Below the pieces are notes generated by a model. It had not been told where the DNA came from and did no database searches. It saw only the letters and a list, made by a program, of their open reading frames with translations. The position numbers and the translations under genes are program-made. From the NCBI RefSeq assembly GCF_014205225.1, contig NZ_JACHNB010000001.1:9095501-9159500 (forward strand): a stretch of DNA of 64,000 bases. The letters are read 5' to 3'. Positions 34,420 to 39,687 of this stretch are shown here, piece by piece. This DNA comes from Actinoplanes octamycinicus. GTDB taxonomy: Bacteria; Actinomycetota; Actinomycetes; Mycobacteriales; Micromonosporaceae. The stretch's first letter is position 1. Each line of letters opens with the position of its first letter.

Positions 34420-35202
34420 TCAGAGGCGGCGGATGACCGACACCACCTTGCCCAGGATCACCGCGTCGTCGCCGGGAATCACCGCATAGCTCGCATTCTG
34501 CGGCACCAGCTCGACGTGCCCGTCCCGGCGCTGGAAGGTCTTGACCGTCGCCTCGCCGTCGATCATGGCGGCGACGATCTCGCCGTTCTCCGCGACCGGC
34601 TGCTGCCGGACCACGACCACGTCCCCGTCGCAGATGGCCGCGTCGATCATCGAGTCACCTTTGACGTTCAGCGCGAACAGCGTCCCGTGCCCGACCATCC
34701 CGGCCGAGACCACCAGCTGATCCGTCACATGCTCCTCGGCCAGGATCGGCGCGCCGGCCGCGATGTCACCGAGCACCGGAACCGCCCGCACCTGATCAGC
34801 CCGGATCAGCTCCCGAACCTCAGCCAGGCCGCCCGCACCCGCCACCGAAGAAGCCGCGTTCTCGGCCGCGCCCGCCACCGAAGAAGCCGCGCCGCCGACT
34901 GCACCCCCCGCCGAAGAAGCCGTGCCGCCGGTCACACCCGAGGGGATCGCGTGGGGCTCCCGCACGTCCACCGCGCGCGAGCCATGCGGCTGCCGGCGCA
35001 GCAGCCCGTGCCGCTCCAGCACCTTGAGGTGGTGCGCCACCGACGACGGCGACACCAGCCCGACCGCCGCCCCGATCTCCCGCACGGTCGGCGGGAATCC
35101 CCGCTCCCGCACCGAGTCGCGGATGACCGCGAGAATGCGCTCCTGCTTGGCGGTTATTCGCGGTCGCGGCTCGTCACCGGCATCGACGCTCATGTCCGGC
35201 AC
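34420..35202 (-). CDS. lexA: LexA-type SOS repressor with an expanded repeat linker
   Basis: A 260-residue repressor-protease. It has an N-terminal winged HTH (about 14-80, with [27 protein letters not shown]), then a Gly/Ala/Ser linker of about 35 residues (93-126) built from an 11-residue repeat. The C-terminal S24 peptidase part has cleavage site A149-G150, nucleophile S184 (KGDSM) and K221 (ATVKTF). The family represses DNA-damage genes and self-cleaves on RecA filaments. Its HTH differs from the usual actinobacterial LexA, so it may be a paralogue. No perfect CGAAC-N4-GTTCG box lies upstream; a relaxed GAAC-N5-GTTC is at 35242-35254. Confidence 0.92.
34845..34930 (-). repeat. in-frame 33-bp repeat within lexA
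   Basis: CCGAAGAAGCCG on the + strand recurs at 34845, 34878 and 34911, exactly 33 bp apart, encoding the 11-residue [12 protein letters not shown] repeats of the LexA linker between its DNA-binding and protease domains. Confidence 0.9.
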
Positions 35203-35718: not shown

Positions 35719-37095
35719 TCAGCGGACGAAGAGCAGGAAGAGCCCCGCCCAGGTACATCCGATCATGAAGAGGACCAGCGGAAACTCCTCAGCAAGAGTG
35801 GCCAGCATCGGCCGCTCCGCCCGACCGGAGCCTTCAAGATCAGCCTTGGCGGCGCCCCGGCCGGAGTCCCGGAGATCAGCGTCCGCAGCGGCCAAGGCCT
35901 CGTCGTCGAGACCGACCCCGGCAGTCCCGCGCTCAGCCGCCCGCGCGACCCCTGCCACAGCCTGCTTCGCCGGGGCGCGCACCCCGGCCTCCAATGCGGC
36001 GTCGTGCGCCACGATCACCCCGGCCACGTGTCCCGCAAGGATCAGGCCCACCTGGACCCCGGCGATCACCGCCGGGATCGGCACGACGTCCCACCGCGCC
36101 TCGGACGCCAGCCCCCACTGCTGCACCAGCAGCAGCACCCCGCGCGGCCCTTCGACGATCAGCAGCGACAGGTAGTGCGCCAGCGTGTACCCCACCGCGA
36201 TCGGAATCAGCGAGGCGGTCACGTCCAGCCCCCCTGCGGTCTTCCGCACGGCGACCAGCACCCCGAGGCAGATCAGCACCAGCGCACCCGTCGCCCACCA
36301 AGCCGGATGCCCCGCCCGTTGAACGAACCCCGCCCACCACGGCGACCCGAAGGCGCTGTCGACAACCGTGGAGCCCCACCAGACAGCCACCAAGGCTGCC
36401 AATCCGACTGCCGACACAGAGGAGGCGGTCGAGGACAACGGCACAGCGAGCCCTCTCAACAGCCCCCGCCACCGGACCGGGCTGAGCCGCCCCGCCAACT
36501 CGGAGTAGACCTCGAAGCAGTCCCCCCGAGCGAACCACTCCTCCCCCCGCAGAGCAGCCATCCCGAGCTGCACCACCCCGTAGCTGATCAGGCCCCACCC
36601 GATCAGCCGAGGATCCGCCCGCCCCGGCGCCACCAGCTCGAACCACACGAACAGAAGCAGCCACGCCGCCGCCGGCCACACCCCGGCCCCACCCCCGGGC
36701 CGCAACCCGGAGGCGGGCAGCCGCAGCACCCGGAACAACGTCCGCAGCGGGTTGACCGCCCGCCACACCGGCCCGAACACCGCGCTGACCGGCACCAGCC
36801 CGACCCACAGCCAGACGAACACCGCGTGCGCCGCCGGGTTCGTCTCGCCGGCCGGGCCGAGCAGCGCGTTCCCCACCAGGTAGACCGTCAGCGCCAGGAC
36901 CAGCCAGCGCAGCACCGGCAGCCATCCCGCGGTCCGCGCCGTCCGCGGCACGCCACCGGCCAGCCGCGGCTTCCGCCACCAGAGCGCCGAGATCAGGAAC
37001 GACACCACCACGGTCGCCGCCCCGGCCTGCAGCACCAAGTCGAGCGGGAGGGGCAGGTCCGACGAGCTCCCGACCCCGTGGGCCAGAGCTGTCAC
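35719..37095 (-). CDS. polytopic membrane protein, last gene of the four-gene cupredoxin operon
   Basis: A 458-residue protein with about ten membrane helices and a soluble, acidic C-terminal stretch (about 390-440) before a last helix. Characteristic stretches are AHGVGSSSDLPLPL at the N-terminus, FGPVWRAVNPLRTLFR, and LRGEEWFARGDCFEVYSELAGRL. From memory, similar actinobacterial proteins are sometimes labelled fenitrothion-hydrolase-like; I would not rely on that label. The GTG start overlaps the stop of the cupredoxin gene (GTGA), so it is translated with it. Transport or an electron/metal-handling membrane role is inferred from context only. Confidence 0.82.
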   Translation of the reverse strand: MTALAHGVGSSSDLPLPLDLVLQAGAATVVVSFLISALWWRKPRLAGGVPRTARTAGWLPVLRWLVLALTVYLVGNALLGPAGETNPAAHAVFVWLWVGLVPVSAVFGPVWRAVNPLRTLFRVLRLPASGLRPGGGAGVWPAAAWLLLFVWFELVAPGRADPRLIGWGLISYGVVQLGMAALRGEEWFARGDCFEVYSELAGRLSPVRWRGLLRGLAVPLSSTASSVSAVGLAALVAVWWGSTVVDSAFGSPWWAGFVQRAGHPAWWATGALVLICLGVLVAVRKTAGGLDVTASLIPIAVGYTLAHYLSLLIVEGPRGVLLLVQQWGLASEARWDVVPIPAVIAGVQVGLILAGHVAGVIVAHDAALEAGVRAPAKQAVAGVARAAERGTAGVGLDDEALAAADADLRDSGRGAAKADLEGSGRAERPMLATLAEEFPLVLFMIGCTWAGLFLLFVR

Positions 37096-37739
37096 TTCAC
37101 CTCGAGCTGCAGCAGCAGCGTCTCCGGGTGCGCCTCGACGTCGAACAGCCCGGCCCGCGAGGCCACGAACACGATGCAGGCCGGCTGCCCGGGCTGCACC
37201 GGGTATTCCAGGTCGTAGCCGTGCACGTGGATGTCCGAGGCGACGTCGGCGGAGACCCCGAGCCGCACCTGGCTGCCGAGCGGCACGCTGACCCGGTGCG
37301 GCGCCGGCGACGCCTTCCCGTCCTGCAGCGCCGCGGTCGCCACCACCTGGTCCGGCGTCGGCGTCCCGCACGCGGCCGGGGTGGCCGCCTGGGCGGCCGG
37401 GGCGCTGGTGCACCCGGGCAGCAGGGCCAGCGCGGCCATCAGGAACGGCACGGTCCGCAGCGCCCGCCGCCCACCGCCGGACGGCGCGCCGGAGGACGGC
37501 GCCGTGGCCGGCATCACCGGCCCGCCGAACGCCACCGGCTCCCGCCGGATCAGCGCGAGCACCCCGAGCTGCGCGAAGATCGCGATCGACGCCGAGGAGA
37601 CCACCAGCACGAACGCCGCGAACAGCGAGGAGAAGGTGAGCAGGCTGGTGGCGGTCATCAGCACGGTGAGGCCGAAGAACGCCGGCACGGTCAGCACCAC
37701 CGACGACACCAGCAGGAGCAGCCCGGTCCACGCTCTCAT
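37092..37739 (-). CDS. membrane protein with internal lipobox and C-terminal cupredoxin-like domain
   Basis: A 215-residue protein. Residues 7-65 form two hydrophobic segments, then a Pro/Gly/Ser linker leads to a second, lipoprotein-like signal (RRALRTVPFLMAALALLPGC, Cys110). The C-terminal ~75 residues look like a cupredoxin (DIHVHGYDLEYPVQPGQP, then FDVEAHPE), with His and possible Cys ligands for copper. ATGA and GTGA overlaps couple it to both neighbours. The internal lipobox suggests either a fusion of a membrane peptide with a lipoprotein gene or an internal start at Met76 that yields a separate lipoprotein. Confidence 0.82.
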   Translation of the reverse strand: MRAWTGLLLLVSSVVLTVPAFFGLTVLMTATSLLTFSSLFAAFVLVVSSASIAIFAQLGVLALIRREPVAFGGPVMPATAPSSGAPSGGGRRALRTVPFLMAALALLPGCTSAPAAQAATPAACGTPTPDQVVATAALQDGKASPAPHRVSVPLGSQVRLGVSADVASDIHVHGYDLEYPVQPGQPACIVFVASRAGLFDVEAHPETLLLQLEVK

Positions 37740-38626
37740 GCCCGCACCTCCGAAGCCGATGGCGAGGCCGCCCGCTGCGCGAGCCGGCGCAGCACCGACG
37801 CCCCGGCCACCGCGACCCCGGCGCCGACGCCGAGCGCCAGCACCACGAGCACCCGCTCGACCGCCGGCGGCCCGGCGAACGGCAGCACCGCCCGGTGGAA
37901 CGAGGTCACGTCGGGCAGCACGAACACCGCGGTCAGCGCGGCGCCGGCGCAGACCGCGAGCAGCCCGGCGGGCCGGCCGCGGAGCGCCACGATCGCGCCG
38001 CCGAGCAGCAGCGGCCAGGCCAGCAGGTTGATCCCGGCGGCGCTGAGGAAGGTGCCGGCCGGCGGCGCCGACTCGACCGCCAGGGTGGAGCCGAGGACGT
38101 GGGTGACCGACGCCGCCATCGCGATCGCGCCGGCCGCGGCGAGCAGCAGGTCGGCGCGGTGCAGGCGGCGGGCGATCACGGGTACGGCCACGGCCGACAC
38201 GATAGCCAGCGCCCACCAGGGCAGCGGGTTCGGCGGCTGCTCCCCGGTGAGCACGCCGGCGACCGTGACGGCGGTGCCACCGGCGTCCAGCGGGACCGTC
38301 CAGGTGGCCGTACGGAAAGCTGGAAGGTCTTTGCCCTCCGGCGCGAACCGCGAGTCTGCCCAGGTCAGCGAGTCGCCGGGGGCGACGGTCCGATTGATGC
38401 CGGAGACCGTGACCGGGCCGCCGGTGTGGTTGGTCAGGCGCAGCTTGGCGCCGTCCTCGATGGCGACCACGGTGAGGCCCGGGAGCTGCGGTGTGACGGT
38501 CACCACCTCGCTGCGCGCGTTGGTCGCCACCAGGCCGCCGGCGTGCGCCGACGCCGGCCCGGCCGTGCCGAGCACGACCCCGGCGACCAGGGCCAGCAAC
38601 ACCAGGAGGCGACGCACCGGGATCAC
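37736..38626 (-). CDS. exported CopC-like/His-initial protein with membrane domain
   Basis: A 296-residue protein with a signal peptide (to about residue 27, ...GPASA) whose predicted mature N-terminus is His-Ala-Gly-Gly. An exposed N-terminal His binds copper in CopC and related proteins. A beta-rich extracytoplasmic part (about 28-135) is followed by five or so membrane helices. The N-terminal domain matches, from memory, an uncharacterised actinobacterial family. It overlaps the upstream gene by GTGA and the downstream gene by ATGA. Copper binding is inferred, not shown. Confidence 0.8.
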   Translation of the reverse strand: MIPVRRLLVLLALVAGVVLGTAGPASAHAGGLVATNARSEVVTVTPQLPGLTVVAIEDGAKLRLTNHTGGPVTVSGINRTVAPGDSLTWADSRFAPEGKDLPAFRTATWTVPLDAGGTAVTVAGVLTGEQPPNPLPWWALAIVSAVAVPVIARRLHRADLLLAAAGAIAMAASVTHVLGSTLAVESAPPAGTFLSAAGINLLAWPLLLGGAIVALRGRPAGLLAVCAGAALTAVFVLPDVTSFHRAVLPFAGPPAVERVLVVLALGVGAGVAVAGASVLRRLAQRAASPSASEVRA

Positions 38627-39687
38627 TCCGGTTGCAGGCGCTGGATGCTGCGGACCACCAGCACGGTCCCGGCGCCGGTCAGCGCGGTGAGCGTCAGCAG
38701 GCCGCTGACGATGTGGATGTTCCACCCCACGGTGCCGGTCTCGATCTTGCCGACCAGCAGCACGGCGCCCCACACGATCGGCGGCGCGAGGAGGCCGAGG
38801 GTGATCCACCGCGCCGTCACCGGCAGGGTGACCAGCGTGTTCCCCACGCGGAGCAGCAGCTCGACGGCGGGCGCGGCGATCGCCACGGTCAGGTGCGGCC
38901 ACCACGGACCCTGGGAGGCGAACATCAGGTGCATGAGCAGCGCGGGGATCGAGACCAGGGCGGTCGGCAGCCCGATCGGCAGCCGCCAGCGCCGGCCGAT
39001 CATCAGGATCGGGACGAGCAGCAGGACCGTGCTGAACAGGTAGCCGTGCATCAGCTGGCCGTCGGTGGAGAAGACGTTGGGCTCGGCCCGGCCGGTGCCC
39101 AGGTGGTAGAAGCCGAGCGCGGTGGCGTGCAGCGAGTAGATGTGCAGCGGCAGCACCGCGAAGAGCGCGGAGATGGCGACCAGGAAGGCGCCGCCGACGC
39201 TGAGCACGCGGCCGGGGAGGGTGGCGGTCATCAGCGCCGGGCCCATCGCGACCAGCACCATACCCAGGATGATCAGCTCGTGGCTGGGGCTGACGAAGAT
39301 CTCCAGGTTCTTCTCGATCCCGAAGATGTTGTGCCACAGCGTGTCCATCCCGCCGCCGACCAGCAGCGACGCCATGCCGGCCAGGGGGATGCGCAAAGCG
39401 TTCGGCAGGGCCAGCAGGCTCTGGTACGTCGGGATCGCCGGCAGCCGCGACTTCATGATCCAGAGCAGCGTGAACCCGGACGCGGCGATCCCCGAGTAGA
39501 GCACGCCGTGCCACGGGGTCCAGAACGTCTCCAGCTCCGGCGTGGTCGCGTGCGCGTAGGCGTCGAGCTGCAGCCCGATCACCAGCCAGGCGCTCGCGAC
39601 CAGCAGCACCCATCGCTCCCGTGCGGTGAACGCCGGGCTGGTGCTCGCGTCGTCGACCACCTGTGGCCGCTCCACGGACGTTGTCAC
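38623..39687 (-). CDS. polytopic membrane protein with duplicated D-x3-H ... [ST]P-x-H motif
   Basis: A 354-residue protein with about nine membrane helices and many histidines. Two similar elements occur at helix ends: D42-A-Y-A-H46 ... T-P-W-H60 and D115-T-L-W-H119 ... S-P-S-H136. The D-x3-H plus downstream His geometry resembles the metal site of PmoC/AmoC (D-x3-H-x12-H), although the rest is not recognisably that family. It is the first gene of the operon. The GTG start has GGAGG at 39696-39700. A metal- or heme-binding membrane role is inferred. Confidence 0.82.
   Translation of the reverse strand: MTTSVERPQVVDDASTSPAFTARERWVLLVASAWLVIGLQLDAYAHATTPELETFWTPWHGVLYSGIAASGFTLLWIMKSRLPAIPTYQSLLALPNALRIPLAGMASLLVGGGMDTLWHNIFGIEKNLEIFVSPSHELIILGMVLVAMGPALMTATLPGRVLSVGGAFLVAISALFAVLPLHIYSLHATALGFYHLGTGRAEPNVFSTDGQLMHGYLFSTVLLLVPILMIGRRWRLPIGLPTALVSIPALLMHLMFASQGPWWPHLTVAIAAPAVELLLRVGNTLVTLPVTARWITLGLLAPPIVWGAVLLVGKIETGTVGWNIHIVSGLLTLTALTGAGTVLVVRSIQRLQPE

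Follow-up and report, generated by a model that had tools for sequence, protein, structure and literature searches.

A bacterial membrane protein family with two invariant D-H-H sets, probably a remote relative of the AmoC/PmoC core, encoded in a four-gene operon of Actinoplanes octamycinicus

Introduction

It is a matter of debate which copper site activates oxygen in the particulate methane and ammonia monooxygenases, enzymes that are difficult to work with in their native form. In PmoC, bacterial AmoC and HmoC, two extra helices precede a four-helix core. Here we analyze a stretch of 64,000 nucleotides of the Actinoplanes octamycinicus genome (hereafter the window; the genome comprises 10.28 Mb in one contig) and, on its minus strand, an operon of four genes, A to D. 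The first of these, gene A (38623..39687), encodes a protein of 354 residues with ten predicted membrane helices, residues 20–160 of which make up an AmoC-like core with two D-H-H sets. On balance we favor the reading that the first four helices of this ten-helix protein are remotely homologous to the AmoC/PmoC core and that the protein belongs, together with the products of B, C and D, to an extracytoplasmic copper complex. If true, CuC and CuD ligand sets would be present in one polypeptide that can be studied without PmoA and PmoB in culturable bacteria, the superfamily would reach beyond the methane, ammonia and alkane oxidizers, and a family that bears no Pfam or NCBIfam name would gain a lead to its function.

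PMC12576850 gives the PmoC ligands as D156, H160 and H173 for CuC and N227, H231 and H245 for CuD. In the PmoC sequence these sets read D-GTW-H-x12-H (TPSH) and N-EWG-H-x13-H (APLH), 71 residues apart. Archaeal AmoC is described in PMC9038741 as part of an AmoCAXB complex, and the D-site as conserved only in bacterial lineages. The best profile match of A is this archaeal protein, which resembles the first half of A in consisting of the four-helix core only (positions 88–243 of 245 in the Pfam model PF04896) and in pairing D-x3-H with TP-x-H-x3-Y-S and N-x3-W/H with P-x-H. It differs in its length of about 187 residues and in the Asn that begins its second set, where A has Asp. PmoC, bacterial AmoC and actinobacterial HmoC lack the six later helices of A and are encoded with XmoA and XmoB. 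Among open-licence PMC papers, we recognized none that describes the A family.

Results and Discussion

Two invariant D-H-H elements in gene A

The first-pass annotation of this DNA had proposed two D-x3-H ... P-x-H elements in A, and the translation bears them out. The first, D42-x3-H46-x13-H60 (TPWH), occupies 39508..39564 and the second, D115-x3-H119-x16-H136 (SPSH), 39280..39345, both on the minus strand; they begin D42-AYA-H46 and D115-TLW-H119 and lie 73 residues apart. In the register taken from hhalign they are the counterparts of the CuC and the CuD ligands of PmoC, respectively, in the same order and with a spacing of 73 versus 71 residues. A thus contains a CuC-type set, D-x3-H-x(12–13)-H at a helix end and the following helix start, and about 71 residues later a CuD-type set with Asp instead of Asn. 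The comparison with PmoC/AmoC drawn in the first-pass annotation therefore not only holds but extends to both sites.

All six residues (D42, H46, H60, D115, H119 and H136) are invariant in 36/36 homologues, 23 of which are only 23–28% identical to the A protein of the window. We also assembled 159 aligned rows from the 36-homologue alignment, 79 genes called in an 80-locus scan and 44 proteins, some genes entering twice from two collections; every row carries the six residues and, likewise, W59, Y64, W118 and S133. Homologues that lose the D/H residues, which the first-pass annotation had held would count against it, are absent from this set, from which the L083 paralogue lacking these residues, the frame-disrupted copy L081 and a short fragment called in L320 had been left out. 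The six residues are equally present in 69/69 rows of the A core. Because the 80 scan loci were fetched by a PWH..Y pattern, there is a bias at W59, H60 and Y64 in that set and none at the other five ligands; gene calls outside the window come from a simple caller, and their starts are approximate. Judged from the sequences, the conservation of the D-H-H sets in A exceeds chance.

A paired pattern, [DN]x3Hx(8-14)[TSA]PxH occurring twice 60–85 residues apart, is found in 105/112 called A genes and in 82/90 PmoC-type sequences, as opposed to 0/1551 other called genes, one of which has a single element. This pattern was composed after A and PmoC had been seen. It finds 0/24 archaeal AmoC sequences because the VP in their second element falls outside it.

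The genome behind L083 has two A-like genes, at L083:1781-2875 and L065:3312-4376. The L083 copy retains a recognizable fold region without the metal residues and is perhaps a partner or a decayed paralogue.

Profile comparisons with AmoC and PmoC

Aligned by hhalign with 24 archaeal AmoC sequences from viral contigs, A gave an E-value of 2.4e-5 and a probability of 75% over 105 columns with 26% identity, all ligands being in register. The score of 40.4 compares with at most 24.1 in 150 shuffles (0/150 as high) and 16.5 for one reversed profile, and a mixed set of 114 AmoC/PmoC sequences scored 35.9 versus at most 24.7 in 100 shuffles. Residues 50–160 alone gave E 4.9e-5 against archaeal AmoC, and residues 165–354 gave E 0.65. 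Eight membrane families from the gene neighborhoods scored no more than 24.7 against A, the highest being the D family. In hmmsearch with an E limit of 10, the archaeal AmoC profile matched 19/159 A rows, the best of them scoring 21.0 bits.

With 11 diverse PmoC/AmoC/HmoC sequences, the 36 A homologues aligned at E 0.025 with both elements paired in order. The 159 A rows aligned with 90 PmoC-type sequences at E 0.02, but in a register that pairs the first element of PmoC with the second of A, the collinear register ranking next at E 0.25; the top score of 24.1 was reached by 0/150 hydropathy-preserving shuffles, the best of which scored 23.1. One sequence with a stop codon, L121, was left out of the PmoC alignment. 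Taken together with the ligand conservation, these comparisons make an AmoC-like copper core in A likely.

Searches of the PDB with the single A sequence returned 0 matches, and the two matches returned by the A profile were judged to be chance. PF04896 gave one match, below cut-off, in 148 genomes of the class, at a locus that by eye encodes branched-chain amino-acid permeases; this match was rejected. The IMG/VR viral contigs proved rich in pmoC/amoC, with 117 confirmed stretches for a PmoC query and 24 for an archaeal AmoC query (L084–L163, L170–L249 and L330–L353).

Predicted structure of A

The AlphaFold2 (AF2) model of A has a pLDDT (predicted local distance difference test) of 90.1, and a model of the core alone 91.4. 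Six further helices follow the four-helix core. In both elements the model places D-x3-H close to a helix terminus, and the helix that comes after it opens with P-x-H. The basic residues that precede helix one and those that separate helices two and three point to an outward orientation of both hairpins. When the core model was submitted to Foldseek, AmoC/PmoC appeared at ranks 2, 9 and 13 with E-values that are not significant.

Proposed mechanism and points against it

Under the reading we favor, the two hairpins on the extracytoplasmic side of A would bear the D-H-H sets that correspond to CuC and CuD, with Asp replacing the CuD Asn, and A would hold one or two copper ions at its outer face. 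B and C may bring copper or electrons from outside to the center in A, with D as a membrane partner, and A would work with B, C and D in this way in Actinoplanes, Saccharothrix and Actinopolymorpha. As to function, we tentatively propose that the A-containing system may perform redox or oxygen-activating catalysis. A bolder formulation, which we offer as speculative, is that A represents a branch of the AmoC/PmoC superfamily that spans several phyla and had no name before, one that retains the two intramembrane copper sites while mostly occurring in the absence of PmoA and PmoB. It would be a minimal stand-alone CuC/CuD copper enzyme that recruited B–D in Actinoplanes and Saccharothrix, giving a copper membrane oxidase or oxygenase of a new type.

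Several results weigh against this reading. With bacterial-type PmoC only, E-values range from 0.02 to 0.1 and the register varies; 16 phage PmoC sequences, for example, gave E 0.099, their first element being aligned to the second of A. With an E limit of 10, the A profile finds 0/114 AmoC/PmoC sequences. Nor is A recognized by PF04896, the AmoC model of Pfam: this model matches 0/36 members, for which 13 other Pfam families are listed, and NCBIfam gives a single stray match in one of the 36. When the six ligand columns are masked, the score falls to 14.8 for archaeal AmoC and 18.3 for the mixed set, so that what the profiles share outside the ligands does not reach significance by itself. 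The first helix of A (residues 12–49, window 39541-39654) is also matched, over 34 columns, by a profile built from four PmoA sequences (E 2.7e-4; the other way round, E 1.6e-3, where 0/100 shuffles scored as high); this match is unexplained and implies that E-values of this kind are loose. The full-length AF2 model, compared with the PDB by Foldseek and VIA and with BFVD, lists no PmoC, an absence that proves nothing, and the core-only model listed PmoC; VIA scores unrelated helical bundles as high as PmoC. What the data show is the ligand residues, their conservation, their place at helix ends in the model, the coupling of the operon and the remote profile similarity, whereas copper occupancy, the outward orientation, the assembly of a complex and the reaction are inferred.

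Distribution of A and of the operon

A was found in 37/67 genomes of the genus of the window and in 25/396 Actinomycetota genomes, and its nearest named relatives are from Actinoplanes. A scan of genome contigs yielded 378 confirmed stretches, the best 80 of which were analyzed; these include records from Chloroflexota, Meiothermus, Rokubacteria, Nitrospirae, Paenibacillus, Peribacteraceae and Saccharothrix. A is a widespread bacterial family that neither Pfam nor NCBIfam names, and it is wider than the operon.

Among the 80 loci, 25 are of the Actinoplanes type: in 17 of these A is accompanied by B, C and D, in 7 by B and D, and in 1 it is alone. The 55 more distant loci comprise 6 with B-C-D, 1 with B and D, 47 without B–D and 1 with an unrelated C hit, the seven operon loci among them being from Saccharothrix and Actinopolymorpha. 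In a tree of the A proteins from these loci, the 25 Actinoplanes-type members form one clade, and the seven other operon loci share a clade of 20 with 13 members that lack the operon; the two operon-bearing groups do not form one clade. Upstream of all seven lie genes for a NarL-type regulator and a histidine kinase (Pfam on L289). The conserved four-gene unit envisaged in the first-pass annotation does not survive these counts: the occurrence of A without B–D in most distant loci, which that annotation had named as a refuting condition, refutes an obligate four-gene complex and leaves the metal site unrefuted.

The operon and the products of B, C and D

The four minus-strand genes in the order A-B-C-D, together with the overlaps of 4 bp between neighbors, are confirmed by the sequence and its translations: GTGA joins A to B (stop/start, 38623..38626), ATGA joins B to C (start/stop, 37736..37739) and GTGA joins C to D (stop/start, 37092..37095), all on the minus strand. 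None of the four products reaches a Pfam, NCBIfam or PADLOC family, and A and B of the window have 0 Pfam matches up to E 10. Neither Pfam XmoA/XmoB matches nor significant profile matches (to four PmoA and four PmoB sequences) were obtained for B, C or D. The homologue sets of all three were filtered by length.

Gene B (37736..38626, minus strand) encodes 296 residues with a signal peptide, a soluble domain and, by eye, about five hydrophobic stretches. The protein reads GPASA|HAGG around a cleavage site placed by eye, which makes the mature N-terminal His predicted in the first-pass annotation plausible; this His and a second one are kept in 25/25 aligned B sequences (31 were called, the rest being excluded by length). 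A signal peptide followed by a predicted N-terminal His is a feature that B shares with PmoB and CopC-type proteins, from which it differs in that the soluble domain is followed by several hydrophobic stretches. Pfam gave no match to Monooxygenase_B or to CopC, a Saccharothrix B giving one unrelated weak family, and the CopC link that had been suggested for B is accordingly dropped.

Gene C (37092..37739, minus strand), of 215 residues as called, consists of a hydrophobic N-terminal part, a possible lipobox and a cupredoxin-like domain with H-x-H and a further His, which are kept in 20/20 aligned C sequences (of 23 hits). C is shorter in several relatives, where it forms a lipoprotein (LxGC) of about 110–120 residues, and the true start of the window's C is uncertain because an extra hydrophobic region precedes the possible lipobox (LLPGC). 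The cupredoxin-like end noted in the first-pass annotation is visible, and CuA domains in the PDB align from E 0.019 (to 0.11), but the Pfam COX2 match (E 0.13) is below cut-off, as is Cupredoxin_1 in L289 (E 0.022). C resembles the CuA domain of cytochrome oxidase subunit II and the cupredoxins in this weak alignment and in its His residues; it differs in having no conserved Cys and therefore no classical CuA or type-1 site. Matches of C to TAL-repeat proteins in the PDB are low-complexity artifacts, and a C hit in L295, by eye an unrelated cupredoxin, was excluded.

Gene D (35719..37095, minus strand) encodes a family-less polytopic membrane protein of 458 residues with invariant His, Asp and Glu; 606 homologues were found, and three His are kept in 137/137 aligned D sequences. 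D as a PmoA was rejected, the profile of four PmoA sequences giving no match (E 0.61). The name "fenitrothion hydrolase", used in databases for D-like proteins, was absent from the listed homologue names and is not adopted here.

Copper genes near A and alternative explanations

Copper genes near stand-alone A were looked for with chosen queries. By phmmer, a CsoR-type gene is present in the vicinity of A in L061, L062, L082, L275 and L298, and Pfam confirms it in L061, L062, L275 and L298; CopA, HMA or multicopper oxidase genes occur within these loci. They amount to about three independent cases, since L061, L062 and L082 come from one family. The five CsoR-type genes in about 1.19 Mb of loci compare with 77 match rows (some split) in about 187 Mb from 60 Actinomycetota genomes, a comparison in which some of the loci are not from Actinomycetota. 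In L313, a PCuAC copper chaperone gene is next downstream of A (PF04314, E 4.2e-29). In four Nonomuraea loci, the gene after A encodes a secreted protein whose mature form may begin with His, and three of the four also have a YtkA-like protein, below cut-off. These neighbors of some stand-alone A genes, the predicted N-terminal His of B and the H-x-H and later His of C suggest the copper role proposed in the first-pass annotation.

Copper handling by the A-containing system may be proposed with the same caution as catalysis: an AmoC-fold A might buffer, move or load copper at the outer face, with B and C as carriers and D as a permease-like partner. The CsoR, CopA, HMA and multicopper oxidase genes near stand-alone A speak for this possibility, as do the PCuAC chaperone beside A in L313 and the Nonomuraea secreted and YtkA-like partners. 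Against it, copper enzymes too occur in copper-resistance clusters, and other stand-alone A genes have TetR-like (7/55) or P450 (3/55) neighbors (Pfam checked on one each), which, like the M16 peptidase neighbors, do not point to copper homeostasis.

The loss of the match on masking of the ligand columns leaves room for convergence, in which an unrelated membrane family would have acquired two metal-binding hairpins of equal spacing for zinc, iron or copper. That the profile match hangs on six columns, that the Foldseek E-values are not significant and that four-helix bundles are common all fit such an origin. We nevertheless consider it unlikely, as archaeal AmoC agrees with A in the two elements, in their order and spacing and in the P-x-H and YS/WH contexts, and shuffles that keep composition and hydropathy fall short of the score.

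The CuB site of PmoB includes an N-terminal His and an H-x-H, and one could picture a full monooxygenase-like machine with A as the AmoC part, B and C mimicking PmoB and D in place of PmoA. Although A matches AmoC, hhalign sets the HVH of C beside an HVH of HmoB, B and C share one open reading frame in L256 and L258, and A occurs together with B–D at two distinct places in its tree, we regard this as very improbable: B versus PmoB (E 0.018) covers the signal peptide and His only, C versus PmoB gives E 0.072 and D matches PmoA no better than stated above (four PmoA and four PmoB sequences), a lipobox-like stretch inside the fused frames of L256 and L258 permits separate starts of B and C, and B–D are missing from 47/55 distant loci. 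Because a Pfam AmoC match and XmoA/XmoB partners were looked for and not found, the system is not filed here as a copper membrane monooxygenase, in agreement with the first-pass view that it is not a recognizable particulate monooxygenase.

Other genes near A

TetR-like genes stand beside stand-alone A in seven of the 55 distant loci, in Chloroflexota-type records (Pfam on L295); the gene is directly upstream and divergent in L295, L279, L293, L306, L328 and L329, and the seventh locus is L292. A cytochrome P450-type gene lies 3' of A on the same strand in three of the 55 (L306:9053-10408, L329 and L308; PF00067 on L306). Six Pseudonocardia loci (6/55: L280, L281, L309, L310, L316 and L326) have an M16 peptidase gene 3' of A, at least some with a second M16 gene.

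In L062, L061 and L082, which belong to one actinobacterial family, A is situated between copper-resistance and NADH-dehydrogenase-like genes, and the 49-kDa-like subunit of L082 starts with a Met/His-rich stretch. Within the window, a gene that by eye encodes a LexA-like repressor lies downstream of the operon at 34420-35202 on the minus strand, and a similar LexA-like gene is present near A in 8/25 Actinoplanes-type loci.

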